Below are positions 10,421 through 47,677 of a stretch of DNA of 64,000 bases, piece by piece (position 1 is the first letter of the stretch; each line of letters opens with the position of its first letter). The DNA lies in contig NC_084813.1 in the NCBI RefSeq assembly GCF_963583255.1, positions 6,000,001 through 6,064,000 on the forward strand. The letters are read 5' to 3'. A model generated the notes under the pieces. It searched no databases and had not been told where the DNA came from. It was given only the letters and a program-made list of their open reading frames with translations. The stretch comes from Pyrus communis (Eukaryota > Streptophyta > Magnoliopsida > Rosales > Rosaceae). Both the position numbers and the translations under genes were made by a program.

Positions 10421-12137
10421 TTAAATTACTCGCTTCCTTTTAACCTCGTGACTGTGGATGTCCTCCAAATCCGAGTGCAGCAGAAGAGGAAAAGATCCCT
10501 TCAACTTTGGCCAATCTCTCAAGTACTTGAGACGCAAGATTTCTACCTTCCACGCAGCATCAGTCTCCCCATGATCTAAGCTGGAAAGTTCTCCACCCCT
10601 TATGTACAGCTTCTTTAAATTTCCCAGTTGTCCCGGGTTCAGCCATTTCGGTACGTGCTCTACGGGGATACCTTGGACGTCCAATTTTTCTAAATTCGGC
10701 AGAAATGCTAATTCATGGGCAGTTTGTTCTTCTATCGCGAGAGAAGCCCCTCCCCAAGATATGTTCAGGTGCCGAAGAGATGAAATGTCCTTCAACTTGT
10801 TGAGTTCCCCCTTCTGAACTAGAGCCTCATTCCCCATGTGTATACTGAGCCGCTTTAAATTCTTCAACTTGGCAAGGCCAAGTCTGCAGGGAGTATTTTT
10901 GAGAGAAGAAATGACAACCTTTGAGTACTTGCAGGGAAGAGAGCTTGTCAAGCCCTTTTGGCATCTTTTCAAGTAAGTAACACCTTCAAGTGTTTATTCT
11001 GAGCCCCCAAACCTTTTAGAAATCCCACATCTTCTCGGTTCACAAACTCAACCTCAATATGATGCGTAGCCAAGTCCTGCCATCGCCCAAGCTGAAGAAC
11101 CGCAACCTTCTTCAACTTACTAAGCCATTCCTTTTTCAAACCAAGATACAGGTCGTTGACATTGAACACAGTCAACAGATCATCCACCTTGGGGCCATCG
11201 TCACCCTGACGAATTTGATTATTGAAAATCAAGCATGCACGCCTGCAGGTTGAAGTATCATAAGATGGCATCCTTGCTCATGTTGCATAAAAGTGAAACA
11301 GCCTAGCTTCGCTGGCCAAGATGATCAACATACGGCGGATCCAAGGGTTCATTACACAACTTTTTACAAACGGACAGGATGATTCATTTGAGCCAGTTTG
11401 ACTAATCAAGCCCTTTCTCATAAGATTTTCGAATATATCTTCTCCTACCTCTTCCGCTGTCTTCTTTTGGGACGTGATGAAGCCCTTGCCGATCCACCAG
11501 TAAATCAAAGGCCCTTTCTTCATCATAGAACCATCCGGGAAGATTGAAAAAGAGAGGAAGCACAACTTCAATTCCATTCTCTCAAGATCTTCATATGCCC
11601 TCCTTATATTAGCCATGGCAGGAGTCTCAGAAATTCTATCCTCCAGGCGTAGTTGTGACCACTCTTTCGACATCTTCTGATTCAGTCCTGACTGATCGAC
11701 AGCAGACCAATGCACATGTGACAGTGGAATGAGTTGTGGGGCGGGGGCGGGCAAATTCTTCACTCCCTGGATTTTACTGCTGTAAATGGTTTCAGCTTGA
11801 AAGATAATGCTACTAAGGCGGCATTCTAGGGCAGTAAATTGCTCCGATAGAGTTTGATTAAAGATCTTCACTTTGGGTAGCAAGTCAATACATTCCATGA
11901 GGATGAGCTTATTTTCAACATATTCAAGTGCCCACCTGCTTCAGGATCTTTGGCCATATCCTTGGCTCTTCTCAAAAGATTGAGCAACTTGGGTATGGAT
12001 ACCTCCAAATCCATTGCGGTTGACATTCGCAATGTCTGAAAAGGTGCAGGAGCTGCAGAATGAGATGTGGAACTGAACATATACAACCAATGCTTTTCCC
12101 CTAGATCATCACTTTTCTGCCAATAAACCAAAATCAT
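10421..12137 (-). pseudogene. RPP13-like-protein-4 type NLR pseudogene lacking the NB-ARC domain
   Basis: Three frames read in sequence on the minus strand: a CC-like N-terminus (from about 12015, AMDLEVSIPKLLNLLRRAKD), a winged-helix region (LCFLSFSIFPDGSMMKKGPL and LIYWWIGKGFI, near 11490-11580) and LRRs (LKNLKRLSIHMGNEAL; LPNLEKLDVQGIPVEHVPKW; LGNLKKLYIRGGELSSL). Breaks: a frameshift near 11900-11930, an in-frame TGA at 11278-11280, and another frameshift around 10970. There is no P-loop, kinase-2 or GLPL between the N-terminus and the winged helix, so the nucleotide-binding part is absent. The overall look is that of disease-resistance RPP13-like protein 4 relatives. With three breaks it should not make a full product. 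It may be decayed from a working NLR or from an already NB-less paralogue. Confidence 0.75.
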
Positions 12138-12563: not shown

Positions 12564-14430
12564 TGGTATCATCGCCGACCATGGCCGCGGCAGTCGGTTG
12601 AAGATCCTTGTGCTTCCGCTACCTATGTTCTTTGGTTGTGACGTCGTCATTCCTGTTTGTTGGTGATTTCTGTCGGTGATTAAGTTTTCTGTTTGCAGTC
12701 GGTGGTTGAAACCCTAACCAATTTGGGGATTTTTCGTTGATTGCTGTCAACTGCATTAAATAAATGTAATGTGTTTGTACCTAGTACTTCACCATCCAAA
12801 ATCTGTGTTACATGTTTGCAAGGCAAGTTCACTAAACTGCCTTTTCCCAGTGTTGCTTCAAAATGTCTTGTTCCTTTTGAAGTCATCCTCATAGATGTTT
12901 GGGGTCCATCACCTAATATGTCTATAGAAGGATTTAAGTACTATGTATCCTTCATAGATGAATGTACGAGGTACACTTGGATTTTTCCATTGATGAATAA
13001 AGTAGCTGTTTTTCATACATTTGTTCAATTATTGGCTTTCATATTCAATATGTTCAATGCCAATGTTAAAATACTCCAAAGTGATGGGGGTGGGGAATAC
13101 ATCAATCATCAATTTCAAAGTTTTTTAAAAGACAATGGTATTGTTCATCAAAAGTCTTATCCATATACCCCTGAACAAAATGGGTTGGCTGAGAGAAAGA
13201 ACATACATATTATAGAAATTTCCATCACTCTTTTACAACAAGCTTCTCTTCCTTCTCAGTTTTGGTTCCATGCTTGTGCAACTGCAACTTTTCTTATTAA
13301 TAGGATGCCAACTGCTATATTGCACATGAACTCTCCATTTGAAGTTTTATACAAATCCCCGCCTACACTTCATTATCTCAGAGTGTTTGGGTGTGCTTGT
13401 TATCCATCTATGAAACCATATCGATCCACTAAGTTGGAACCCAAAACTACTGAGTGCTTGTTTCTTGGGTATGCATCTCAGTATAAAGGGTACATATGTT
13501 ATGATATCCACACCCATAAACTCATTGTGTCAAGACATGTAATGTTTGGTGAAAAAAAGTTTCCTGGATTTTCTATTGCATCTCAACCCACTTCACCTAC
13601 AACTAAACAATATTCTTTAGTTGGTCATCCTACCAAATTTACTCCTATTACTTCTATTCCAATTCCTTATCCTATTGTGGGTCCATCTTTCACTGCTCTT
13701 GGTTCCCATGTTACTCAGTCTAGTCCTTCATCAACTCAACAATGTGACCTTGTTTGTTCTTCATCAAAGGGTTCTAGCACTTGTGATTTAGCTACTTCTG
13801 CAATAAGGGAGTCTTCGGTTAATTCAGTGATACATACTGAGGACAATCCAGATGTTACTACTTCTCAGGTTGCTGATCTTTAATCTGTGATACTTAACTG
13901 TCATCCAATGCAGACTAGGTCTAAGTTTGGCATTTACAAAAAGAAAGCTTATGTTTCTCAACAGTGCTCTGATTCAATGTCTCTCCAAGAACCATATACT
14001 CTTCAAGCTGCTTCTAAGTCTGTGTAGTGGCAAGCTGCTATGAAGGAAGAAATGGATGCTCTTTTACAACAACATACATGGAAACTTGTTCCTTTACCTT
14101 CAAACAAAAATTGTGTTGGATGTAAGTGAATTTATCAACTCAAGTAAAATTCAGATGGGTCTGTGGCACGATATAAGGCTTGATTGGTAGCCAAAGGTTT
14201 TTCTCAAGAAGTCAGTTTGGACTATTATGAGACCTTTAGTATAGTTGTGAAACCTACTACAGTTCGGTTGATTTTAGCATTAACTGTGATATCCCAGTTG
14301 ACCAAAGAGTTTGATATGAAGGATCTTGGTATTTTACATTTCTTTCTTAGGTTACAAATTGAATATCAGGCAAGAGGTCTTTTTGTTCATCAACATAAGT
14401 ATGTGAAGAATAAAGAGAATTTGTCTTATT
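12564..14430 (+). mobile_element. Decayed Ty1/copia retrotransposon (integrase plus partial reverse transcriptase)
   Basis: A continuous frame at 12741-13883 carries the copia integrase: the zinc-finger CVTCLQGKF end, the core acidic residues in LIDVWGP, ILQSDGGGEY and NGLAERKN, then the FGCACYPSMKPY and CLFLGYA segments. Downstream, at 13,900-14,430, a reverse-transcriptase frame is interrupted by several stops (just before WQAAMKEEM, after VGCK, after YQLK, after RYKA). It jumps from LILALTVIS straight to LTKEFDMKDLG, so the catalytic YVDD segment is deleted. Gag and protease are missing. Several stops fit C-to-T or G-to-A decay of methylated DNA. No LTR pair was found. Confidence 0.85.
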
Positions 14431-20257: not shown

Positions 20258-21056
20258 GGACATTAGATGAAGGCCAAATTCCACTTTTGGTTCATATCGT
20301 TGGCCCAAATTTTCACTTCTATTCATGGCGTTTTAGTTGGACCTTTCAACATAGGCATGTTACGTGTAGAAGCATTTTTGCAAAAGTTAAAAGAGATAAT
20401 ATTTACTAGCGATATGAGCGAAGTAAGTGTAAAATATCACATTGTAATTATAACACAAGGGGATGACAAATAAAAGGATAGATACTGATGTTATTGATTT
20501 TTCTGTATCACATTGTAACTATAACACAAGGGGATGACAAATAAAAGGGATAAATACTGATGTTATTAATCTTTTATTCCTCTCAGTATTTTGATAGTAC
20601 ATAGAACGCTCTATTTATAGAGCAACTTCAACGCACACCTTTTAAAAATACAATTCTTCTTCATTTCCCAAGTCAGCATGTCTCCAACTATTAAGTACTC
20701 ACTCTTAATCTATATAATTAAATTCAGAGAGAAATCACACTCTAAACAAATTTTCTGATTCCACTAACAAAAAATTACTTCCGCCGACTTTCTCTACGTA
20801 TCTTTGTATTTTATTTTGGCATCCATCAACAGTTAAGCACCCAAATTCAAATTAGAGAGCGGAAAGTAAATGACAAGTTTTATTTTGGAATAAATCACAA
20901 GTTTTTAGGGAGTGTTTAATAATTTTTTTACTTTATGATTCTTTTCTTGGTCAATGTGAACGGGATTTGATGTCCAAACCAAAGGCGGGGTTTCCTTCCC
21001 TCATGAATTCACAGAATTGAAGCTAAGCGCCCACTGTTGGACAACAACGAGCATCA
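20258..21056. other. Intergenic region / promoter of the NB-ARC gene, with a 71-bp tandem duplication
   Basis: A unit beginning TATCACATTGTAA at 20435 is repeated at 20506 (period 71 bp, a few substitutions and one indel) and covers about 20435-20572. The remainder is AT-rich. The 5' leader of the next gene is expected in the last 100 bases. Confidence 0.6.
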
Positions 21057-24000
21057 ATGGCAGTGGACGTTGCAGAATTTCAATGGAGAAAGTTCTTGAG
21101 CTCGCTTCGAGACGCCGAGTCGGAATTATCAGGTTCAATTTCCATCATGTACTTCAGAACAATAAAAAGTCTCATCTCTTCCTTCAAGTCGATCAAAAAT
21201 GGGGCCAGAGAGATAGATATAATGCCCCGCCCTCCTTACGACAACTCTGAAATCATCGATTTTCTCTACAAACTCAACGACGCGTTGGCCGAGTGCCGAA
21301 TCTTCGCAAGGGAATGCAAGGAGCTCAACAAGAAGCTCTTACTCTTCAACCCTTTTGGATTTTACTTCATCCAGAAGATGAATAATCGACTGGATGGATT
21401 GAGGAAGGAGCTGGAGAGTTTGGGGGGCGCCCGGCGGCTGGACAATGACGTCGGAGATTGTTGGGCTGAGGAGGTGGAAATACCACCTTGTCCAGTTGTT
21501 GATGGGTTTGATGAGCAGGTTGTTTATGGGTTTGATGAGCAGGCAGAGAAAGTTGAGGACTTGCTGTGTGGGGAGGGCTCTACCGGAAATGGGTTTAGGA
21601 CAATTGGGGTGTTGGGGATTGCTGGTGTGGGTAAGACCACCCTGGTGCACAAGGTTTTGAAAATGGAGAGAGTTAAGGGTAAGTTTAATCCTATAATTTG
21701 GTTACCCTTTTCGGGTATGAGGAAAGAGGAAGAACAGTATAGTAGGTTTAGCTTTGAGACGTGCATTGTCGATAATTTGGGCCAAACTCTGGATGGGAGG
21801 ATAGTTGGCCTTGGTAAGCTCTTGGAAAGGCTCAACCAACTGTTTTCTGGTAAGAGGTATCTGATTGTGTTGGATGATGTGCAGCAGCGCCACATTAACA
21901 TTGAGGATCGCTTATGGCGCGGATTGCCTAAGGGTAGCGGTGGTGCGGTCATTGTCACTAGTAGGTTAACAGAAGTGGCTCGAAAGGTGGTGGAAGAAAG
22001 GGACTTGATTTATGTTGAGCCTTTGGACAAAGAAATTTGCTGGAGCATATTTGAGGAGACTATGAAGAATAACAAAGAAGTTTTAAACATTTCATGTCAC
22101 ACAACTTTGCGTAAGATTGAGAATGAAATTAAGGATCAATGTCATGGCCTTCCATTGGCTGCTAAGGCGCTTGCAGGAATCATTCCGGAGCAGATTCGTG
22201 AGATTGAGTATTCTTCTAAACCCCTCTTTTTCGTTGATGGGTTTTGTAGATATATGGGTGAATTTGTGTACTTCATTCTTCAGTGTAACTCCTTTATTGT
22301 GATAGTGTTACATACATATAATATTGAATTTCGTGGAGTATAGACTAATGCTTAGTATTTGATGCTGCTGTACCTTGAATTTGTTTCAAGTTCTTTTATA
22401 TATGAAGTGAACTAAATAAGGTGATTCGTATATTTGTTAAGATTTGGCTCCCCAAAATTCATATTTACATGCAATAAGAATACTGTGGATCAAATTGTAG
22501 GTCCAAACGTTTCTTGAAGGAGATGTATATACCTGATGAATTGCTTAAACATGATTTGGTTGGTGAACCTTCTGTCGACATACCAAGCTGCCCAGTTTTA
22601 GTGTTTGTTGATATAAAAGATGAAAAGCTTGGAGTACAACTCCATAACGAATTTTGCTACCGTCTTAATAAAAAGCAGGTATTATTTTCTCTTTATAATT
22701 GTCTCTCCTTGAGGAAAGGCATTTTGAAATGATTATTTTAAAAAAGAAATCTGACCTGTATGATTGTAAACATGCTTAACTTGATAGTGTTCAAATTATA
22801 ATTTCTTTCCTAGGTCTTTGCTGTGCTGGAAGAGGACTCTGATTCTAAGGGACCAATAAAGGTAGAGGATCCTGAGGGCGTGCTAAAGGAGGTTTATGGT
22901 GCTCTACATAAGAGTAAAAAATATGAGTTTGCTGATGATATTCAAAAGAGGATGAGAATTATAGTGAGTAGCATGTTAAATTTATCCCTATAGCCAATTG
23001 TTCAACACTTTTTCTTCTGTTTTTGGTTTTTGAATTTGTATTTATAATTTCAACAATTTCTGACATACATTTTGGATATTTTTCCCTTAATTAATCTTTG
23101 GGTTGTGCTGTAGCTGTCTTTCTAACATATATTTCTTTTCAGATTGTTGGTGGGGGTGATGTGGTTAACCGGATTCTTGGAGTTATTTGTGATCTGAAAT
23201 TACCAGAGTCGCCCTCCATTGTGCCAATATCACATGGGACTGAAAATAACATCCCACTTTCGTTTGGATGGGTAGGACATCTTTTAGTTTATGAAAGCAT
23301 CTTTCAAGGGATCAATTATTTTTCTTCTTTTGTTGTTGATTGAGGTGGGTTTTAGGAATAAGGTGAGGTTTTGGGAAGAGTGCTGGGTCGGGACAACTTT
23401 GAGCCCTTACATGATTCCAGAGCATGATTTGATAACTACTATTAAGTATATACAGACATGTAGAAGGTGTGTGTGGTTTAGAGCTTCGGAAGAGGGTCTA
23501 ATTTCATTGTCACATTAGAATGAAACTGAAAGTGGCTGTTACCTACTTCTGCACTTTCTTCTTCTGCTTTCTGTCTAAAATTTGTTTGCTAGGTCAGTAT
23601 TGTATGCTTCTTTTAAGTTATAATTTGTTTGCTATTTTGCAGGAGGTGCCTAAAGTTGATCGTCAATCAGTGACATCATTCCTGTATCAAGTAAAAGAGG
23701 CACAACAGATAAAAACTGACAGGTCTAACTCATATTTATTGTTTTCTTATTAAAACAAGTTGGAATTTGAGGAAAAGTACAATAAGGGTTTGGGCAAACA
23801 AGCCAGGCTTGAGACAATATATTGATAGACCGTTTCCAGTAGACAAACAAGCCAAACTTGAGTATGTTTTAATGGATCCCATAATTTGGTTCTAAGAAAA
23901 TTTAGAAATTGAATGGTGTTGGGTTATATATGGGGCTTTTGTATGTGAATTGCATATTTGTTATAGGCTTCCAGTGGTAATCTTATGTGATTATTATTGG

Positions 24001-27000
24001 GTTTCAGCTGGCATATTCTCATTAAGATGAGAACTACTCAAAGTTCTACAGATCGTAAAGAAATACCACACTCTTTTCATGTATTTCGTCCTGTTCACAA
24101 AGGGGCCACAGAAACTGAGGTTCACAAAGGGGATACAGAAACTGAGGTTCACAAAGGGGCTACTGAAACTGAGGTTCACAAAGGGGCAAGAGAAACTGAG
24201 GTTCACAAAGGGGCTACAGAAACTGAGGTTCACAAAGGGGATACAGAAACTGAGATTCACGAAGGGGATACAGAAACAGAGGTTCACAAAGGGGCAACAG
24301 AAATTGAGGTTCACAAAGGGGCTACAGAAACTGACGTTCACAAAGGGGCTACAGAAACTAAGGTTCACAAAGGGGCTACAGAAACTGAGGTAACCAAGTG
24401 CTCAATTCCCCATCCCCAAACCCCCTACTCTATCCATTTGAATCACTTCTTTGAGATAAAAAGAAAGATCACCATTTTATTTGGACCAACAAAAAATCTC
24501 TCATTTCATGCCTTTACCCTCTAGTGTTAAGTATTATTCTCAACGGGCCTATCTTTTCTGTGATCCTGAGATTAATGAAGTAGTCAATGAATGATGATGA
24601 CGTCATACTTTAACTTAAATTGTAGATTAGTTCAGTTTATAGAAAATATTTGTTACTTGTCAGTTGTCAATTTAATATATTTTCTTAGACCTTTGCTCTT
24701 GATTTTATTTCCTTCTCTTCTTCAAGCATCCTTTACCTTCATAAATTATAATATCTTTGTAGATAACACCTTGGCAGTGGAGAAATCCATAATAGAGGGC
24801 TGGCTTAACCATAATGGTAATCAGAGGTATGTGCTGACGTTAGTACCACACAAATGCTGGTGGCAGCACTGTAGAAATTTTATATTGCGTGGACTGCATC
24901 ATGTTAAGTCAATCACATCAAAGGTGCAGATCCCATTGCAACCTTTGATTACTCTATGACAGAAAGACTTCAAAGCTTTCCTTGTAATTTGAGATAAAAT
25001 GTGTTCACCACTACATGGAGAAATATTCCACCTCCCTCCTATACACCTCTAAGTTTCATCTTTGGTATTTGTGGAAGGTTGGTATTGGGTCCTAATAGGC
25101 TTGATGTAGGCTTCTTGGATCCTGATTATAGCCTATATCCAACGGATCTTGAATTTCCAAAAATACCCTTGACTTCAAGAACTTGAGAACACAAACATGA
25201 ATTCATTAAGTTTTCTAATTTAAGTAAACAAAACGGTTTAGGCATCCAAAGGTTTTATGGGTTTGTTTCACACTGTTGTGACAATAACAAAAGACCTTCC
25301 AGATATCAACAATTCTTTAGGTAGTGTTTGGATAAAATAGACAGAGGTGCTTTTATAGTGGTTCCTGGAGAAACACTTATTGCTTGCTAGTGAATATAAG
25401 AAGCACTTGGGTTACTACTTATTAGAGGTTTATGCTTTTCTTAAAAGTTCCCACTAATTAGAATACTACTAAGTAGAAGTGCTTTATACAAAGTACTCTC
25501 AATTAGGTGAGGAGTGCCAGTATGAGAGTCCTTGTGAACTTAAATCTTATTAACGTTGGCTAGTTTGATATTTCTTGGGCCTTTTCTGCCCCGTCATGGT
25601 TGGTTCCGATTTATTTGGAATGATCATCAATATTTACTGGGTGAATCAAATGGTTAGCCGGATTCATGGTGAAATTTCTTGTAATCACCATGACTTCAGG
25701 GATATGATCCTGACTTGTTTGTACTTTGAATTGGCGGTTGGTAAAAGAGGTTTCAACATGCAGTACTGAAGGACCACATATGAACAATCTACTTATGAAG
25801 TCTGTACTTTTTCATTTTTATTTAATTCTCCTTACCCTCACTTCTCATTTTTTTAGGATAATCTCGAATTATCAGGAGGATTCTGGAGCTATTTCAGCTT
25901 GGGTAAGAGTATACAAGGCAGCCACCAAGTTTTTGGATTTTGGTTTTGGGTTTTTGTTTTTTATATTTTCGTTTTCCTTCTTAATCCTGTCAGATATTCC
26001 CTTTTTCCATTCATTGATACATAGCTGTATGGTTTTCCCTTTAAGAATCAATTTTGCTAGAAATCAGTTCAATAGGAAACTTTTAACCATTTGGTTATTC
26101 GCTAGATGAAGATGTCATTGTTTACCTGAAATCCATGCTGCAATTTATTTGATTTACTCGCTAGATGTCTAAATGCTCCGTGAATGTTAAATAGGCATTC
26201 TGAAAACCTGATGGAGTGTAAACCTGATGGAAAACAACAAAACTGATGGATGATAATGCGGAGAACTAAAAATGAGTGCAGAAGCACATGAAATAGGAAA
26301 GACTGCCAATAAAGCATTATTAATTCTTTTATTCAAGATATAGTGTAATGAGATGGGTGCATGGACCTTTTAATGAACTTTTCTATATTCTAATAGGACC
26401 ACAGTTCCTGATTATATACTATTTTTCCAATGAAAACCAAATATATTACCATAAAAACAGACCAGGGTTCCTGTTGTGTTTATGTTTATTGGTTTGAGGA
26501 CTTCATCATCTTCTTTAATTGACACATATCTAAATATTGGTAATGTTATATTCTTGTTTTCTTGGTATGGGGTCCATAAATTACTTTGTGAAGATAAAAA
26601 TTCTCTTTCATTTGGAGTTGGTCTTATGATATTCAAGTTTAATGACCTTAATAAATACTATAAGTACAGTGTCTTGTCTATTTATATGCCAACAGGAGTT
26701 GATGCTCCAAGATCATGCGGAGGTTACTGGTCTACTGCAAGGTAGTTATTTAGCTTATGTTCATGTAATTGAGAAGTTGGTTTGAAAACTCTTGTTATAT
26801 ATTTTGTATCTGTTAGTGATTGTGTTACTACCATTTTGTGTGTTGTTTAAGCACTTTAGACAGTCACAGATGTGCTCGTTAGATTTCTATCAAGGGAAAT
26901 CGAGAAGATCTATGGTCATGCTGGTGGCAAATGCACATTTTTAAATACATATATCTAACTTTGTAGTTTTAAGTTTTTTTAGTGTACTTATTTTTATTAA

Positions 27001-29333
27001 TATAAGGGTTAATCTGTTAGTATTGAAACTCTTGAATCTTAACCCTTCAAGACACCAACAAAAGCCATTAAAACTATAGAATCCCTGAATCAGGTCATGT
27101 TGATGTCAGCTTTAATCATAATAAGCCTTCACCATGACCTGCTAAGTTACCCTGTTGGTGTCATACAGCATTAAACACAAAAACTGTACAGTAAAGGCTA
27201 CATGAGCTCAATCTTTAAGATGAGGACTTAATTTATGCATTCCCTGGCCTTTTTCGTGCTTGTTTACATTGCCAATTAGGTGTTAAAAATCTAGTCTATT
27301 GGTGTATACAATACCCTGTTTTCATTGCTGCGTTGAAATTACCATCAGTTTTTACACAATGGTTTTATCCCACGAGTCATGACGTATGATTTTTATAGTT
27401 ACCGACGTAATTAGCAGGGTGTAACGCTTCATATATACTTTAAGCCAAGTTGAATACATAATGTTACTATGAATAGTCATTGAAACATGCTGGTTAAGGA
27501 GCAGATGTCCACAGTACAAACTCCATGTTTTATGAATTTCTGGTACTGCAACATGAATACTGCTGGTGGCCTGGCATGTATACTTGTGGTTGACCAGCAG
27601 TGCAGAAGCATGGAGTCTGCACTTGATATTGAATTAATATGGCACTCCAGCTCAGATGTTTTAGGTTTTTTGTTATTAGAATATTCGTTCTTTGATGTTA
27701 AAATTATTTTTGTCCCAAACAGGTCCTTAAAATCACTTGTAAACGTAGAGGTTATGAAGCATGGTCGTTTGGAACCACTAAAAATTCCTAGCGGGTAAAT
27801 AATCAAACTTATATTCACCTCATTTTTGTTGCTTTTGACTCGAACACTTACATTTTAAATTGATTATACTAATGTGTAATTTAGTTTCTTAAATATGTTG
27901 TTATGAACCATGCTTCATTCTCTCATCTCAAATCTCACTGGTTTGCATGATTAAATGGAGAAAAATTGTTTCTTGACTTTTCATTATGCCGTCTTCCCGC
28001 CATTTTTCCTTTTTCCCCCTTGGATTTGATAATTGTTTTACTCCAAACAGATGGAAATTTTCATTAGTGTATCAAGTATTGACGAAGCGACTATGGACTA
28101 TTTATTTCCCCTATCTTGGCATATTTCTGTCATTGTCAAACAAACTGAAGGGCAATGCTCTGTACACACACACACACATATACATTCTTCTATTACCAAG
28201 CCATCTTTTTTCATGATATGTATCCATGTGTGCATGGACAAATGGACAACAGAGGAACAAATTCACAAACATGCATACTGATGCGGAATTCTTGCTGGCA
28301 TTCTAAGTTTCTTTTTGGTGTACAGAATCAAGTCAATTGTTTGTCTTAACTTGCCAAGCGATCTTGGGGGATCATCCAATATGAACAAAGATCGAAAAGT
28401 GAGGTTCTTTAGTTTTTAGCTCTTTACCTTTTATTTGTGTGAGTGCACAGGCTAATGATTTTTGTATTTTTCGTTAGAATTTGCAAACAGTGTTCTTCGT
28501 TATTTCCTTTTTACAGTCGTAAATTAACACTTTATTGGTTGGAATTGAACAACAGAACATGAACCCATCGGTCATAAATGATGGACAGCTTGAAATTGTC
28601 GGTTTGAAAGGAGTTTTACTGGCTCAGAATGAACGTATTTATCTTGATCAGGTCATATAACATCTTGCATTTATGTTTAGACTTTTCGATTGTTTCTTTC
28701 TTTTATTTTATTTAATCTCTAATTTGTAAAACTACCCAGATATTACACATACGCATCAGGCAAGAAAAATATACCATAAAGCCAAATTTTGATTTTTAGG
28801 AACTTGATTTCAGTACTTAGTTCTTTATGTGCTTGTAACAAGCGAGCAAATTTATGATATGTGTTTGAATTTTAGAAATGAAGTCACCGATGAATTGCTT
28901 TTCCCTCCTCTGTTAGGTACAAGAAATTCGTTTTGAGTTTAAGGGTGCTGCAGAATCTGTAAAGATGAGGATTGATGGATCACCATTGAAACAAATACCA
29001 CCTGGGATGATAGATATTAAAATCTCTAGACACTCTCAAGTCAACATTCTTGGCAACGGAGATTGCGCGGCAAAAACAGGTACCTCTGACTCATTGGAAC
29101 CCCGTGCTTCTGGAACCGATGATAATAGCAATGCGAAAGATAAGTCAACTGAGGAAAGTAGCAATGCTCAAGATAGCTATAAAGAACGTAAGAAGTTTGG
29201 TTCAGCAGACACTTTCAAATACTCTGAAACCGAGGATAATAGCAATGCGAAAGATAAGTCAACTGAGGAAAGTGGCAATGCTCAGGATAGCTCTAAAGCA
29301 CATAAGAAGTTTGGTTCCGCAGGCACTTCCTAA
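21057..29333 (+). CDS. Candidate fusion gene: CC/NB-ARC resistance-type domain joined to a degenerate DGK5-like diacylglycerol kinase
   Basis: Exons I place: 21057-22240, 22501-22678, 22814-22963, 23143-23271, 23643-23722, 24008-24389, 25857-25902, 26696-26741, 27723-27794, 28326-28398, 28556-28651, 28917-29333. All phases fit, giving 950 residues. Exon 1 has a helical N-terminus, P-loop GIAGVGKTTL (about 187-196), kinase-2 LIVLDDV, RNBS-B-like AVIVTSR and GLPLAAKAL, without MHD or LRR, like the short At5g45440/At5g45490 proteins. Exons 2-12 follow plant DGK5: FLKEMYIPDELL, IPSCPVLVFVDI, SWHILIKM, GGFWSYFSLG|VDA, IKSIVCLNLPS, INDGQLEIVG, KMRIDGSPLKQIPPG, KKFGSADTFK. The kinase looks inactive: GGDGT is GGGDVV, GTGNN is GTENN, and the exon for the QGWFC region is missing. 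The exon 1 donor (GATGG|GTTTTG) is weak. If it is unused, exon 1 ends as a 428-residue NB-ARC protein at 22343 and the DGK part is a separate, possibly dead, gene. Confidence 0.6.
24093..24389 (+). repeat. 27-bp x 11 in-frame coding minisatellite (VHKGATETE)n
   Basis: Eleven head-to-tail 27-bp units fill the end of exon 6 of the DGK-like part and finish exactly at the splice donor GAG|GTAACC. Units differ by a few substitutions (GATACA, GCTACT, GCAAGA variants) and none breaks the frame. Each junction reads GAG|GTTCAC, a weak donor-like sequence, so alternative donors within the array are conceivable. In DGK5 this place is a loop between the HSLHAFHRV-like and GGFWNYFS-like segments. Confidence 0.9.
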
Positions 29334-29410: not shown

Positions 29411-29698
29411 TCACCATATTATATCAAACAATTTTGCTGCATGAATTTCATCTAATTCGTCGTTGTAAATAGTTTGGATATTGCCATAACTCATGAACTT
29501 GTATCGAATTTCAAGTGGAGAACAAAAGCAATGTGTAGCAAGAGGACTTTCTTCTACTTGTTTCTCAATTGATTGTTTGAGAAGTTCAGTGTTCCAGTCA
29601 TCTAGCACGTTGTTCATCTCATATGAGACATCTTTCAGCTTCTCCAACCAGTCTCTCACAGAGGCTTCCTTCACTTGCCTCGTCTCTGCATCGGCCAT
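29411..29698 (-). pseudogene. Fragment of an NLR coiled-coil (Rx_N) domain
   Basis: The frame starting at the ATG at 29696-29698 reads MADAETRQVKEASVRDWLEK, then LKDVSYEMNNVLDDWNTELL, the second half of the Rx N-terminal coiled coil of RGA-type CNL proteins (intact relatives have LADAEKRQVKEE..VRxWLDKLKDxSYDMDDVLDEW). The earlier helices are missing on the N-terminal side, and after about 60 residues the homology stops, with a stop codon at 29411. No NB-ARC lies nearby on this strand. It is convergent with the NB-ARC/DGK gene, whose stop is 78 bp away. Confidence 0.7.
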
Positions 29699-30580
29699 TC
29701 TTGGCGTCGGATTTGGTTGACAATTGAAGAAGAAAAACAAGGAATATATAAAGTAAGAAATGCAGAATGGTTCTGCTATTGCCCTTCTTCTCCCCAGTTT
29801 ATGTATTGTCCAATACCAACTCCATGTCAACTATTCCAGCAGCAAAGAGAATAATGGACCGACTATAATAATTTAGTATCAAACGTGTCATTCAAGTTAG
29901 TTGAATCTAACACATCCAGCTTAATTCCAAGCAAGAAAGAATATCACCAAACCAAAATGTCAACTAGCAATTGATAGTTGTAATACAAGGGCAAGTTTCA
30001 CATATTCCCTTCAACATAGGGGGCATCTCAATCGTTTTGAGGTTTGTCAATTTCCTCCATTTTACCACAGGTAGGAAGCTCGATATTAAATTATTAAGTT
30101 TGATTTATTGTGATGTTTAACCTGCACCACATAACAAACGTTATCTTTATTTGGATCTCGACCTAAAACTAAAATTTCGAAGTAACCTAGTGGGACCAAA
30201 ATTGAAATTTGTGCAGGGAAAATTTCTACTACATTTTCTGGCTATTTTGTCCCCATTTTGGTGTCTTTTTTTTTGTCTCTTCTTTATTTGCTTGACATGT
30301 GTTCATTCACTTAAATCAAGCTGAGGAGGTGTTAGTATAATGTCACAAATATAAGGGAATTTTGTGAAAACTCGATAAATCTCAAAGAGTGTTAGTGTCA
30401 TTAAGTCATTTTATGTCAAGTAAACGGACACATGTCAAAGAAAGAAGGAGACATGAAAGGGACACCAAAATGGTGACACCAGATCCGCAGCCACATTTCT
30501 CACCACCAAGTGCTTCCATATCCTGTTATCAACGACATTGTTCACTCGTTTGGTCCTTCCTTCAGCAAACCCCCAAAGCA
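29699..30580. other. Intergenic region and promoter/leader of TTM3
   Basis: No conserved coding sequence seen. The open frame continues upstream of the TTM3 ATG to about 30389, but those residues show no resemblance to TTM3 and I treat them as leader. Confidence 0.5.
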
Positions 30581-31192
30581 ATGGAAGTGGAAGTGAAGCT
30601 CCGCCTCCCAGACGCCGCCGCACACCAAAAGCTCACCGACCTCCTCTCCCCCTTCCACACCCAAACCCTAATCCAAGAGAACATCTTCTTCGACGGCTCC
30701 AACTCCGAGCTCTCCTCCAACCTCGCCATCCTCCGCCTCCGTTTCTACGACGTCGACAGGCGCTGCGTCCTCTCCCTCAAGGCCAAACCCGTCATCTCCG
30801 GCGGCGTCAGCCGAGTCCTAGAGCTGGAAGAGCCCTTCGACCCTGTCCTCGGCCGCGTCTGCGTGGCCGAGCCGTGGAGGCTCACGGCCGTTGACTCCTC
30901 CGACATCTTAAAGCGCGTGAGGGAGGAATACAGTGTTGGAGGAGGGCAAGGGTTTGTGTGCTTGGGTGGGTTTAGGAACGTGAGGGGTGTGTATAAGTGG
31001 AAGGGGCTGAAGATAGAGGTGGACGAGAGTATTTACGATTTTGGGACGTGTTACGAGCTCGAGTGTGAGAGCTCCAACCCTGACAGGGATAAGCAGGTTC
31101 TGGAAAACTTGTTGGAAGAGAACGGGATTAGGTTTCGGTACTCGGAGGTCTCCAAGTTTGCGATTTTCCGGTCCGGGAAGTTGCCGGAGTGA
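30581..31192 (+). CDS. TTM3: Triphosphate tunnel metalloenzyme 3 (CYTH domain, inorganic triphosphatase)
   Basis: An intronless frame of 203 residues. It begins MEVEVKLRLPD, which contains the family's ExExK catalytic signature at residues 2-6. Further tunnel-lining motifs follow: LRLRFYDVDRR (Arg-rich strand), CVLSLKAKP, EEYSVGG, GFRNVRGVYKWKGLKIEVDE, DFGTCYELECE, and the C-terminal KFAIFRSGKLP typical of plant TTM3. Arabidopsis TTM3 hydrolyses tripolyphosphate and is about 210 residues, so this copy is full length. I chose this ATG because the longer upstream frame is not conserved. In Arabidopsis TTM3 shares a bicistronic transcript with CDC26; no CDC26-like frame is visible upstream here. 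Synonymous GC content in the first half is higher than in neighbouring genes. Confidence 0.93.
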   Translation: MEVEVKLRLPDAAAHQKLTDLLSPFHTQTLIQENIFFDGSNSELSSNLAILRLRFYDVDRRCVLSLKAKPVISGGVSRVLELEEPFDPVLGRVCVAEPWRLTAVDSSDILKRVREEYSVGGGQGFVCLGGFRNVRGVYKWKGLKIEVDESIYDFGTCYELECESSNPDRDKQVLENLLEENGIRFRYSEVSKFAIFRSGKLPE

Positions 31193-43519: not shown

Positions 43520-45052
43520 TTAAAACCGATCTTTAGCTTCACTTTTCTTTAGCGTGAGTCCCTCCCTTGAACAAACTCCAAGCATACTTCTGAGCTTCTC
43601 GAACACTGGCTGTTTGAGAGGTTTTGTCATGAGATCAGCCACCTGATCTTCACTCTTGCAGTAGTGCAGCTCAATCACACCTTCTTTGCATATATCACGT
43701 AAGAAATGGTATCTAACATCGATATGTTTGCTTCTTCCATGCATGACTGGATTCCTGGATAGCTTGATTGCTGAAACATTATCACAATAAATTAATGTTG
43801 AGTCTTGTTGCTGATTACCAAGAACTCCTAGCATTCTTCTCAGCCAAATGGCTTGACAGGAACATGAAGCAGCTGCCACGAACTCAGCTTCAGTTGTGGA
43901 TAATGTCACGATTTGTTGTTTCTTCGAGGACCATGAAATTGCACCTGAACTCATTAAAAACACATTTCCAGAAGTGCTTTTACGATCATCAATGTCTCCT
44001 GCATAATCACTGTCAGTAAAGCCAAAAAAATGCGACTTTCCTCCCTTCTTATAGAAAATCCCAAAATCTGTTGTGCCTTTTAAGTAACGAAAAATTCTCT
44101 TGGCTGCCCTGAGATGCATCTCAGTAGGATTCTCCATGTAACGACTTATCACACTTACAGAATGCATGATATCAGGCCTTGTGGAAGTTAGATACATCAG
44201 ACTCCCTACTATCTGTTTGAAATAAGTGTTGTCAACCCTTTCCCCTTCAGGATCTTTACTCAGCTTGAACCCTACCTCTGCAGCTGTTCCGATGGGATTG
44301 CTGTTCAACATCTAAAACCTTTCCAATATTTCCAGTATGTATTTCTTTTGGCAAACAAAAATGCCAGTTTCTGATTGTGCTACTTCTATGCCAAGAAAGT
44401 AATGCATCAATCCCAAGTCGCTCATATCAAACTCTTCCATCATAGATTTTTTAAAAACATCAAACATATCAACTCCACTTCCAGTAAAAATCAGATCATC
44501 AACATAAAGGCATATAATGAGCATTTTACCTTCATCTCCTACCTTAACGTACAAGGTATGCTCATATGGACACTTTTGGAAGCCTTGTTTGACAAAGTAT
44601 GCATCTATGCGACTGTACCAAGCTCGTGGTGCTTGTTTCAGTCCATAGAGTGCCTTCTTCAACCTCAAAACCTTCTTCTCTTTTCCTTGCTGCACATAGC
44701 CTGTAGGCTGATCAACAAACACTTGTTCTTGCAGTTCACCATGTAAAAAGGCGGATTTTACATCTAGTTGATAGATAGGCCACGAGTTTTGAGCAGCGAG
44801 AGAGATTACCAAGCGAATTGTGTCTTGTCTTGCAACCGGAGCAAACACCTCTTTGTAATCGACACCATACTTTTGCTTGTATCCCTTTGCTACCAAACGG
44901 GCTTTATACTTGTCCACCTCACCTTTTTCATTCAATTTGGTTTTGAAGATCCACTTCAACCCAATAGTCTTCTGACCTCTCGGCAAATCTGTAAGCTCCC
45001 ACGTATCATTTTTCTCAATGGACCTAATTTCTGCACCATTGCCTTTTGCCAT
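43520..45052 (-). pseudogene. Copia reverse transcriptase / RNase H region with in-frame stop
   Basis: The frame entering at 45052 carries the reverse transcriptase (DTWELTDLPRGQKTIGLKWI, QLDVKSAFLHGELQEQVFV, YGLKQAPRAWYSRID, and catalytic YVDD in ICLYVDDLIFTG). A TAG at 44312-44314 interrupts it after EILERF. The same frame continues with MLNSNPIGTAAEVGF and the RNase H domain (FTDSDYAGDIDDRKSTSG, TTEAEFVAAAS, YCDNVSAIKLS) to a stop at 43520. Relative to gag-integrase the frame is shifted near 45030-45060, with a few extra residues (KGNGA) not expected in the family. Confidence 0.9.
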
Positions 45053-47592
45053 TTTGAGTCTTCAACTGCTTCCTCAAAGGTGAGAGGAGTGGAATTTGCA
45101 AACAAGGCAAAGTATGCAGTAGTGTCATCATCAGAGAGTTCATCTCCACTTACATAATCAATCATCCACGATGGTCTTTTCCTCGGTCGTTGAGTTTGAG
45201 GTGGCTGGTCATCCGTAGGTTGAGCATTTTCTGGTGGGATTTCGTCAGGCTCAGGAGACTGCTCAACCCTAACTTCTGTTTCTTCAAAGTTAGCCGGTAT
45301 TTGCTGCTGCTGCTTGCTCTTTCCAGCCCAATCCCACGTCTTTTCTTCATCAAAAAACACATCTCGACTGGTAACCATCTTCTCCGTTGTTGGATTGTAC
45401 AACTTATAAGCTTTGGAGTGTTCACTGACTCCAAGGAAAACACACTTTGCGCCCTTGTCATCGAGCTTCTTTCTTTTCTCGTTTGGAATGTGTGCATATG
45501 TTATGCAGCCAAATATTTTAAAATGATCTACTGAGGGTTTCCGCCCACTCCAAGCTTCCTCTGGTGTCATGTTCTTAACAGAAAAAGTAGGGCACCTGTT
45601 TAAAACATGAATGGACCACAGTACAGTTTCAGGCCAAAAACTTTTAGGAACACCTCCCTTCACTAGCAAGCTTCTGACCATGTTGAGAATGGTTCGGTTT
45701 TTCCTCTCGGATACACCGTTTTGCTGAGGTGTGTATGAGGCAGTGAGCTGCCTTCGAATCCCTTGCTCATCACAGAAAGCTTCAAACTCCTTTGAACAAT
45801 ATTCACCACCACGATCAATTCGAAGGGTTTTGATCTTTCTGCTACTTTCAGTCTCAACCAGTGCCTTAAAGCTTTTAAATGCATTAAAAGCTTCTGATTT
45901 TTCCTGCAAAAAATACACCCAAGCCTTTCTACTGAAGTCATCAATAAAAGAAATAAAGTATTTCTTTTTACCATTCGACATGGGACTGATTGGACCACAA
46001 ATGTTCGAATGTACTAGCTCCAATAGGTTTTGAGCTCTCCATGCCTTTCCCTTTGGAAATTGATCACAGTGCTGTTTGCTAATGACACATGCTTCACAGA
46101 CTTCAGATGGAGGTGTGATCATGGGAAGGCCAGTCACCATTTGCTTCTGATGCAGTGTCCTCAGACCGCTGAAATTCAGATGGCCATAACGTAGGTGCCA
46201 CAGCCACGATGAGTCGTCTTCTTTAGCCATCAAACTAGTTTGAACAGTTTTGATCTTAAGCGAAAACAATCTGTTTTGGCTCATTTGAACAACAGCAATG
46301 ACACCCCTTACTGGATCATATATCTCACATGCATCTTTCTGAAGAGTTATTATATAACCCTTTTCTTGTAGCTGTCCAGCACTCAACAAATTTGTTTTCA
46401 AACTAGGCACATAAAATACATTCGAAATCGTTTCAACAAAATCATTCTTAGTCCTAATTTGAATATCACCCTTTCCCATTACATTGACACGTGACCAATC
46501 CCCAAAGCTCACAGTAGTTTGAAAGTTTTCATCCAAAAATGAGAAAGATGACTTACTGCCAGTCATATGATTGCTGCAACCTGTGTCAACATACCATACT
46601 TCGAAATCAATCTCCTCCTTGACGTGGAAAGCCATCAACAGTGTCTCATCATCCTTCTTTTCAGCAAAGTTAGACTTCTCTCCTTTCTCTTTGTCTTTTG
46701 GCAGCTTTGTGTAGCATTCGTTGCAATAATGCCCAAGGTTTCCACACCTATAGCACTCGATGTTGGACTTGTCAACTTGTCCTCTGCCTCTATTCTGAGA
46801 GTGATCATCATGTCTCTTGGAACTTTGGTGTTGTCTGTCTCCATCCCGGTTGCCTCGACCACCTCGACCTCTTCCTCTACCTCTACCTCGGCCTCTTCCT
46901 CTTGAGCTTAAGGATTCAAAAAAGGTAGAAGCTTTCAGAGCTTGTTCTTCTGAGTTGACACGTTCTGTGATCCCACGGTTCAGCTGCTGCTCATGGACCA
47001 ACAATGAGCTTTGAAGCTCATCAATCGACATCTTTGCAGTGTCATTTGACTCTTCAATAGAGCAAACGATATAGTTGAACTTTGGAGCCATAGATCTTAG
47101 GATCTTCTCTACATTGGAGCCATCATCAAGCTTGTCACCATGGATTCGCATTTTCTTTGCAATCCCCATGGTCCTTGCAAAATACTCGGTGACAGACTCT
47201 CCATTCTTCATTTGAAGAGTCTCAAAGTCTCGTCTCAGGGCCTGAAGCTGTGCACGCTTCACTCTTGCTGACCCTTGGTACTTTCTCTTCATGGAGTCCC
47301 AAATGTGCTTGGAAGTATCCTTCTGGAGAATAGTCTCCAAAATAGCACGATCAATTGATTGGAATAGGTAATTCTTTACCTTCAAATCCTTCAACTTCAG
47401 TTCTTCAAGCTTACGTTGTTGCGCAGTCGTAAGCGTACTTTCTTCGGGTATAGTATAACCTGTTTCCACAAGATCCCAGTATTCTTTGGACCTTAGGAAA
47501 TTCTCCATCAACATGCTCCAATGATCGTAGTGACCATCGAAGCGTGGAATCACTGGCTGAACAAAGTTTTTTGCTGGCTTGTCAGACGCCAT
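44956..47592 (-). pseudogene. Copia gag-protease-integrase frame (878 residues, frameshifted at the end)
   Basis: Starts MASDKPAKNFVQPVIPRFDG. It has a UBN2-type gag, an Arg/Gly-rich block, zinc knuckle CYRCGNLGHYCNEC (about residue 279), protease WYVDTGCSNHMTG (about 332), a GAG-pre-integrase region (WHLRYGHLNFSGLRTLHQKQ) and an integrase core. The first catalytic Asp of the integrase is replaced by Asn (LVHSNICGPI, about 527; relatives have HSD), while the second Asp (LRIDRGGEY) and Glu (NGVSERKN) are kept. After EEAVEDSKWQKAM the frame shifts and stops, losing connection to reverse transcriptase. Confidence 0.92.
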
Positions 47593-47677
47593 GAATGCTT
47601 GCTACTGCAAGGACAAAAGCTGCTGCTTCTATTAAGAAACTCTCGACACAGGCCCAGTGGGGGCTCTGGTACCAAAT

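Follow-up and report, generated by a model that had tools for sequence, protein, structure and literature searches.

The window analysed here, a stretch of 64,000 nucleotides from Pyrus communis, contains what is probably a single gene for a protein with a CC-like four-helix domain, an NB-ARC domain ending after ARC1 and its GLPL motif, and a pseudo-diacylglycerol kinase (pseudo-DGK). We favour the reading that it is a member of an old eudicot family of one origin, in which the NB-ARC switch is gated by the pseudo-DGK as a sensor. The architecture, the support for a shared origin, the kept switch motifs and the lost kinase motifs are read directly from sequence. A tblastn search with 294 retrieved proteins matches this single locus, and no other NB-ARC/DGK copy is found in the window.

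As originally predicted, an exon at 21057-22240 and 11 exons from 22501 to 29333 join into one open frame of 950 codons plus stop with zero internal stops, and the DGK exons have AG/GT boundaries. The stop-to-stop ORF 21027-22343 contains the NB-ARC domain (Pfam, E 5.6e-30) with its P-loop, LIVLDDV and GLPL motifs. A Pfam check had been proposed for the joined protein, and the DGK half matches DAGK_acc (PF00609, E 7.2e-10); DAGK_cat is absent from its Pfam matches with E values up to 1. The expected lack of a start codon holds, as the exon-2 frame has no Met upstream of FLKEMYIP. The revised model, with donor 22207 joined to 22501, has 12 exons and encodes 939 residues. Its features are as follows.

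21057..22207, + strand: exon 1 with revised end, four-helix CC-like domain and NB-ARC to GLPL/end of ARC1 (Pfam, junction spacing shared with 15 of 16 relatives, AlphaFold)
21615..21638, + strand: P-loop (Walker A) GIAGVGKT (motif read)
21861..21881, + strand: kinase-2 (Walker B) LIVLDDV (motif read)
22146..22157, + strand: GLPL, the final NLR motif ahead of the fusion point (motif read)
22208..22500, + strand: intron 1 of the revised model, enclosing the 22240/22241 donor as a possible alternative (+11 codons, same phase)
22501..22678, + strand: exon 2, start of the DGK half, SKRFLKEMYIP... (gene model, alignment)
22814..22963, + strand: exon 3, DGK (gene model)
23143..23271, + strand: exon 4, DGK, with broken ATP site GGGDVV at 23149-23166 (standalone DGK5 GGDGTA) and SHGTENN (standalone PLGTGNN) (alignment)
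23643..23722, + strand: exon 5, DGK (gene model)
24008..24389, + strand: exon 6, DGK, containing 11 in-frame tandem copies of a 27-bp repeat (VHKGATETE) at 24093-24391
25857..25902, + strand: exon 7, DGK (gene model)
26696..26741, + strand: exon 8, DGK, shortened, lacking the greater part of the standalone segment
27723..27794, + strand: exon 9, DGK accessory (gene model, Pfam)
28326..28398, + strand: exon 10, DGK accessory (gene model, Pfam)
28556..28651, + strand: exon 11, DGK accessory (gene model, Pfam)
28917..29333, + strand: exon 12, DGK end and tail, where a 114-bp in-frame repeat (29109-29328) doubles a KKFGSADTFK-like motif

The first donor is where the original prediction has to be changed. 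Donor 22240, proposed as the linking site, places 31 residues between GLPL and FLKE, while donor 22207/22208 (GA, then GTATTC), 33 bp upstream in the same phase, places 20. This spacing is 20-24 residues in 15 of 16 aligned relatives and 28 in the Fragaria isoform P0026. Pyrus and Malus records read ...EQIREIE followed by SKRFLKEMYIP or SKRFLKQMYIP, exactly at the revised join. Thus the relatives' spacing favours 22207, and 22240 is probably not the main donor, although an alternative downstream donor may occur, as the Fragaria isoform indicates. By chance alone an in-phase splice is a 1-in-3 event. Since domain order and join position in the alignment are shared by Rosaceae, Jatropha and Davidia, chance can be ruled out here.

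Annotated proteins with an NB-ARC followed by a DGK are found by database protein searches in Pyrus, Malus, Rosa, Prunus, Jatropha (a rosid) and Davidia (the dove tree, an asterid). This range is a lower bound, as the searches give the best 120 of 234, 353 and 232 matches; with the Davidia DGK half alone as query, a second fusion is not among the best 120 of 353. The gene order that was to be checked in other Rosaceae is present in Pyrus, Malus, Rosa and Prunus, and its presence in rosids and an asterid makes the finding wider than first claimed. The DGK alignment and trees include 17 fusions with pear among them, near-identical Malus isoforms and other records being omitted, and 20 standalone DGKs chosen for spread. 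The DGK tree separates the 17 fusions from the 20 standalone DGK5s with support of 97/95, and the same split has support of 94/91, just below the tool's star, when the active-site columns are masked. For both Jatropha (p 0.003) and Davidia (p 4e-5), the tests reject a recent independent capture. The branches of Jatropha and Davidia are long in the tree. The NB halves and the DGK halves of the fusions each form their own clade.

Two adjacent genes merged by gene prediction or by read-through would give a similar annotation. The fusion records are mostly gene models, and there are NB-only records (P0233, P0236) as well as a DGK-only isoform in Rosa (P0022, beginning MSNRFLKEMY), all of which would suit such a merge. 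However, the order and the GLPL-FLKE spacing recur as described, each half forms its own clade, and a 1098-residue frame lies inside a contig of only 4,328 bases. In addition, no Met occurs within 15 residues before FLKE in 16 of the 17 fusions, and the one exception, P0218, has its Met in the NB part; among the 20 standalone proteins, 16 have one. A merge is therefore very unlikely. By the open 12-exon frame and the annotated relatives, the fusion is very probably real, and it looks like an old, kept family rather than a local accident.

The records show further variation. One Malus domestica assembly has two adjacent models (P0016/P0019) that split the gene within the DGK, which counts against the single-gene reading, and the NB part is tandemly duplicated in Rosa proteins P0207, P0208 and also P0206. 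The fusions are recorded as 'uncharacterized protein', 'hypothetical protein' or 'diacylglycerol kinase 5-like', and because of these generic or DGK5-like names, surveys of disease-resistance genes and of DGKs may both have overlooked members.

Plant NLRs are considered to sense through LRRs or added domains and to depend on a winged helix for auto-inhibition. The P-loop is kept in 16 of the 17 fusions (missing in P0025) and the kinase-2 DD in all 17. The AlphaFold model has helices at residues 2-24, 30-52, 64-89 and 99-129 followed by the NB fold; this four-helix block, with pLDDT of 55-89, aligns with ZAR1/NRC chains. Pfam Rx_N has no match in the pear pieces or in the 10 family proteins scanned. 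In 8 of these 10 proteins the NB-ARC match reaches no further than position 204-207 of the 248 in the profile, the best stretch being 173 in P0206 and 115 in P0220. Pfam finds no WHD family in the 10 proteins. LRR families are likewise absent at E 0.01 from all of them (including P0235, which is also without a DGK match) and from both pear pieces. An MHD-like motif is present in none of the 17 fusions compared with 55 of 58 NLRs. The original assignment to an NLR type is thus borne out for the kept switch motifs, but the protein is not a full NLR, because WHD, MHD and LRR are not found. At the N-terminus, 5 of 13 fixed positions of the MADA consensus are matched, compared with a mean of 2.3 and a maximum of 6 in 185 controls; the motif occurs in about 20% of CNLs according to the part of PMC6944444 consulted. 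Membership in the ZAR1 clade was considered and rejected: sequence search favours ZAR1, but the tree leaves the NB-ARC unplaced (AU p 0.475 with ZAR1 held with the fusions, 23 NLRs in the test). The NB-ARC tree contains 40 of the 58 NLRs, the motif cut giving no segment in the other 18; it omits P0025, which has no P-loop, and uses one NB-ARC per tandem protein.

The DGK5-like half had been suggested to be dead, and its motifs agree with this. The ATP-site GGDGT is present in none of the 17 fusions compared with all 20 standalone proteins, pear having GGGDVV for GGDGTA, and NSKSGG is lost in all 17 fusions compared. The ATP site GXGXXG/A (GGDGTA) is needed for DGK activity, as stated in the portion of PMC5293798 consulted, and we infer from the missing motifs that kinase activity is lost. 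DAGK_cat is still detected by Pfam in the relatives P0018, P0020 and P0205. In pear this domain is undetectable, the exon 8 region is shortened and a repeat is inserted, as a decaying pseudogene might show. Against such decay, frame and splice sites are intact across the 12 exons and a lipid-kinase fold is predicted. Furthermore, identity to Pyrus bretschneideri is 96.7 and 98.6% in two core parts of the DGK and 97.9% in the NB half; for Malus baccata the values are 91.0 and 93.8% in the core parts and 93.7% in the NB half. Conservation of the DGK core is close to that of the NB half, so the core is not simply decaying, and a pear pseudogene is very unlikely. The repeat insert and the tail are less conserved, the disordered tail being 42.4% identical to Rosa and 33.3% to Prunus. 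Among solved structures no sequence match to the standalone plant DGK P0042 is found at E 0.01.

In our preferred reading of a switch gated by a pseudo-DGK sensor, the DGK5-derived fold without ATP motifs occupies the usual position of winged helix and LRRs. The NB-ARC would be a working nucleotide switch, and the pseudo-DGK its sensing or gating part, which may bind a lipid (DAG/PA), DGK5-type enzymes or their attacker. Its state would determine which nucleotide state the NB-ARC adopts and in turn signalling by the N-terminal bundle, in a presumed setting of immunity or phosphatidic-acid signalling. Loss of activity, sensing, an immune role and a partner are all inferred. More tentatively, the family could represent a class of eudicot intracellular receptors that arose before rosids and asterids separated. 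As the sensor of their NB-ARC switch, these receptors would have a dead lipid kinase in place of winged helix and LRRs, and the state of a lipid or lipid enzyme, not an LRR, would set the switch.

In a strict integrated decoy, the pseudo-DGK would mimic active DGK5 and trap an effector targeting it, and the NB-ARC would trigger immunity, perhaps with a partner NLR. A dead-looking copy of an immune enzyme is indeed attached to an NB-ARC, and derivation from a host immune component is indicated by its similarity to DGK5 together with the role of Arabidopsis DGK5 in PTI and ETI (PMC11927175, in part). In a strawberry R-gene survey, the table of R genes that have cis eQTL in fruit includes one described as DGK5 (PMC6778783, in part). 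Four listed Rosa rugosa members lie on contigs of identical size and two peach loci carry numbers close to each other, which resembles the cluster habit of R genes. However, the fusion is old, has neither LRR nor WHD, and its DGK core evolves no faster than the NB half. The literature consulted, in its available parts, contains no effector targeting DGK5. The originally suggested link to BIK1 is weak: the BIK1 site of DGK5-beta lies within its C-terminal calmodulin-binding part (PMC11927175, in part), and by eye this part is missing from the fusion tail, though likewise from three standalone DGK models. We consider the strict decoy somewhat unlikely.

Alternatively, the protein could be a housekeeping or signalling regulator and not an immune receptor, its NB-ARC ATPase tethering the pseudo-DGK and so adjusting DGK5 or the level of PA, for instance by serving as a dominant-negative partner. 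The old single origin, the conserved DGK core and the absence of LRRs would suit this role, but plant NB-ARC proteins are mostly immune, and the multiple copies and the tandemly duplicated NB part in Rosa resemble R-gene evolution. This alternative appears unlikely.

A family that keeps the switch, without LRR and winged helix and with a dead phosphatidic-acid enzyme, would tie NLR switching to PA/DAG signalling. It would make it possible to test directly how an NB-ARC stays off without a WHD, and members are present in pear, apple, rose, cherry and strawberry relatives. Among the titles and abstract starts listed for the literature on such a fusion, NLR-integrated domains, these loci and the DGK family, in part the first 15 of 26, 15 of 28 and 12 of 38, no description of an NB-ARC-DGK fusion is found; PMC4759884 Additional file 3 and PMC12787737 Table S4 may list it. 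Neither DAGK nor diacylglycerol is mentioned in the main text of the surveys and reviews searched.

A comparison with plant DGK5 (DAGK_cat and DAGK_acc) shows that the fusions are alike over most of its length, and many standalone DGKs are about 30% identical. The FLKE.YIP start is shared, and a KFGAADTFK-like tail is found in several members. The fusions differ by the loss of GGDGT and NSKSGG, the lack of an own start and the position behind an NB-ARC. Compared with CC-NLRs (CNLs) of the ZAR1/NRC type, they are without winged helix, MHD and LRR, and their NB-ARCs form a separate clade outside the 40 sampled NLRs. They resemble NLR-IDs in combining an NB-ARC protein with a foreign domain similar to an immune signalling enzyme, but here this domain substitutes for WHD-LRR instead of extending a whole NLR, and the distribution extends over rosids and an asterid.

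Joining exon 1 at 21057..22240 (+) with the 11 exons at 22501..29333 (+), as in the original prediction, gives a single open frame of 950 codons with zero stops. Pfam bears out both halves: the exon 1 product is an NB-ARC domain (E 5.6e-30) and the product of the following 11 exons is DGK5-like, with an accessory DGK domain (DAGK_acc, E 7.2e-10). The Pfam scan finds no catalytic domain (DAGK_cat) in the DGK half of the window. The nearest protein is from Pyrus x bretschneideri, with identities of 97.9% in the NB half and 96.7 and 98.6% in two parts of the DGK core. The DGK part fills 6.8 kb, introns included. A 27-bp in-frame repeat (VHKGATETE, 11 copies) is located inside the DGK half at 24093-24391, and by eye its copy number varies between Pyrus and Malus proteins. 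A 114-bp in-frame repeat at 29109-29328 duplicates the KFGAADTFK-like tail motif of DGK5. Five other features are found in the window:

10424-11940, minus strand, winged-helix and LRR fragments of an ordinary CNL, about 18 kb from the Rx_N fragment
12741-13880, plus strand, Copia-type retrotransposon open frame
29414-29830, minus strand, Rx_N fragment of an ordinary CNL, just downstream of the fusion gene
30368-31189, plus strand, CYTH-domain gene, shortly downstream of the fusion
44959-47601, minus strand, Copia-type retrotransposon open frame

No NB-ARC is detected by tblastn on the minus strand between the Rx_N and winged-helix/LRR fragments, which may come from one broken CNL or be unrelated to each other.

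The donor at 22240 proposed originally is probably not the main one. EQIREIE directly abuts SKRFLK in the Pyrus and Malus proteins, and this junction fits a donor at 22207/22208, which lies 33 bases upstream and keeps the phase. With this donor the protein is 939 residues long, and its GLPL-to-FLKE spacing is 20 residues versus 31 for the 22240 donor. The spacing is 20-24 residues in 15 of 16 relatives and 28 in the Fragaria isoform P0026, which looks like the use of a downstream alternative donor. The Rosa chinensis isoform P0022 starts with MSNRFLKEMY, so the gene may have DGK-only products too.

The fusion is not confined to pear; its domain order and junction spacing recur in other Rosaceae. 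Among the best 120 of 234 matches to the DGK half, the top 15 (Pyrus and Malus) carry both NB-ARC and DAGK_acc, as do proteins of Rosa, Prunus speciosa and, ranked lower, Davidia involucrata. The whole Davidia protein as query (best 120 of 232) adds Jatropha curcas and further Malus fusions, and its DGK half alone adds no further fusion among the best 120 of 353, so that the family range from these matches is a lower bound. The Davidia query is covered to 98% by proteins from Prunus campanulata, armeniaca and persica, for which no DAGK family is annotated. Coverage is lower in Prunus mume (77%) and brigantina (48%), and with this coverage the brigantina protein may be the NB half only. Two tandem NB-ARC units precede the DGK in P0207 and P0208 (both Rosa) and in another relative, P0206. 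P0206 has 1,098 residues, yet its contig measures only 4,328 bases. As the DGK part of the window by itself fills more than this length, the contig is very probably a spliced transcript.

In the DGK tree of 17 fusions and 20 standalone DGK5s (without NB-ARC), one branch separates all fusions with support of 97/95 (96% of 200 bootstrap trees). With the three active-site motifs masked, the support is 94/91 (92%), slightly below the tool's star. With this masking, a tree in which the fusion from Jatropha groups with standalone DGKs of Euphorbiaceae is rejected (AU p 0.00345), as is one in which the Davidia fusion groups with Davidia and Cornus standalone DGKs (AU p 0.00004). The exact position of these two fusions is unsure because their branches are long. 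In an NB-ARC tree with 40 NLRs, 16 fusions and three NB-only records, 19 family members in all, fall into a single clade (100/100), whose branching order broadly fits the species. P0235, an Erythranthe guttata record in this clade, is annotated after a phloem protein 2 (PP2) piece with no DGK, and either has a different domain partner or is a merged gene model. Davidia belongs to the asterids (Cornales), Jatropha to the rosids (Malpighiales). The agreement of the two trees suggests that the fusion arose before rosids and asterids diverged, a split over 100 million years old.

The P-loop is kept in 16 of the 17 fusions and the kinase-2 DD in all 17, while an MHD-like motif is found in none (55/58 in NLRs). 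GGDGT is present in 20/20 standalone proteins and in no fusion (GGGDVV in the window), and NSKSGG, a nucleotide loop, in 15/20 and none, respectively. The standalone proteins have 204 invariant columns. All fusions retain 18 of them, and 23 are retained in none (including N43, S44, S46, G52, G111 and T112), some of the 23 falling in a segment absent from many fusions. GXGXXG/A is described as required for plant DGK activity (PMC5293798). Together with the motif counts, this makes the lipid kinase look dead in every member compared, with the NTPase half retaining its site. Conservation of the DGK core is similar to that of the NB half (63.5 and 62.8% vs 58.5% identity to Rosa; 58.0 and 57.9% vs 53.0% to Prunus), which argues for function. 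The tail is poorer (42.4% and 33.3%, respectively).

Arabidopsis DGK5 is reported to produce PA in PTI and ETI, with the BIK1 target Ser506 in a C-terminal calmodulin-binding part that isoform alpha does not have (PMC11927175). By eye, this part is absent from the fusion tails but likewise from three standalone DGK models; direct control by BIK1, though it may occur, is therefore unsupported. The kinship of the NB-ARC suggests an immune role, as do four Rosa rugosa fusion-family records on contigs of one identical size and a strawberry table in which a gene described as DGK5, a candidate fusion, is found among R genes with cis eQTL in fruit (PMC6778783). An NB-ARC without a winged helix requires another hold on its nucleotide. 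The pseudo-DGK is proposed to be both this hold and a sensor, and would read DAG/PA, DGK5 or some attacker of DGK5.

In their main texts, two integrated-domain surveys from 2016 (PMC4759884, PMC5067614), a 305-genome survey (PMC12787737), a 2022 review (PMC9528084) and a peach NLR paper (PMC13269891) do not use the terms DAGK or diacylglycerol; the fusion may be listed in supplements. Six family locus names have no mention in the literature searched. The fusion is thus an NLR-like protein with a foreign domain, in a form new to the main texts searched. It departs from NLRs in two of their defining features, the winged helix with its MHD motif and the LRR.
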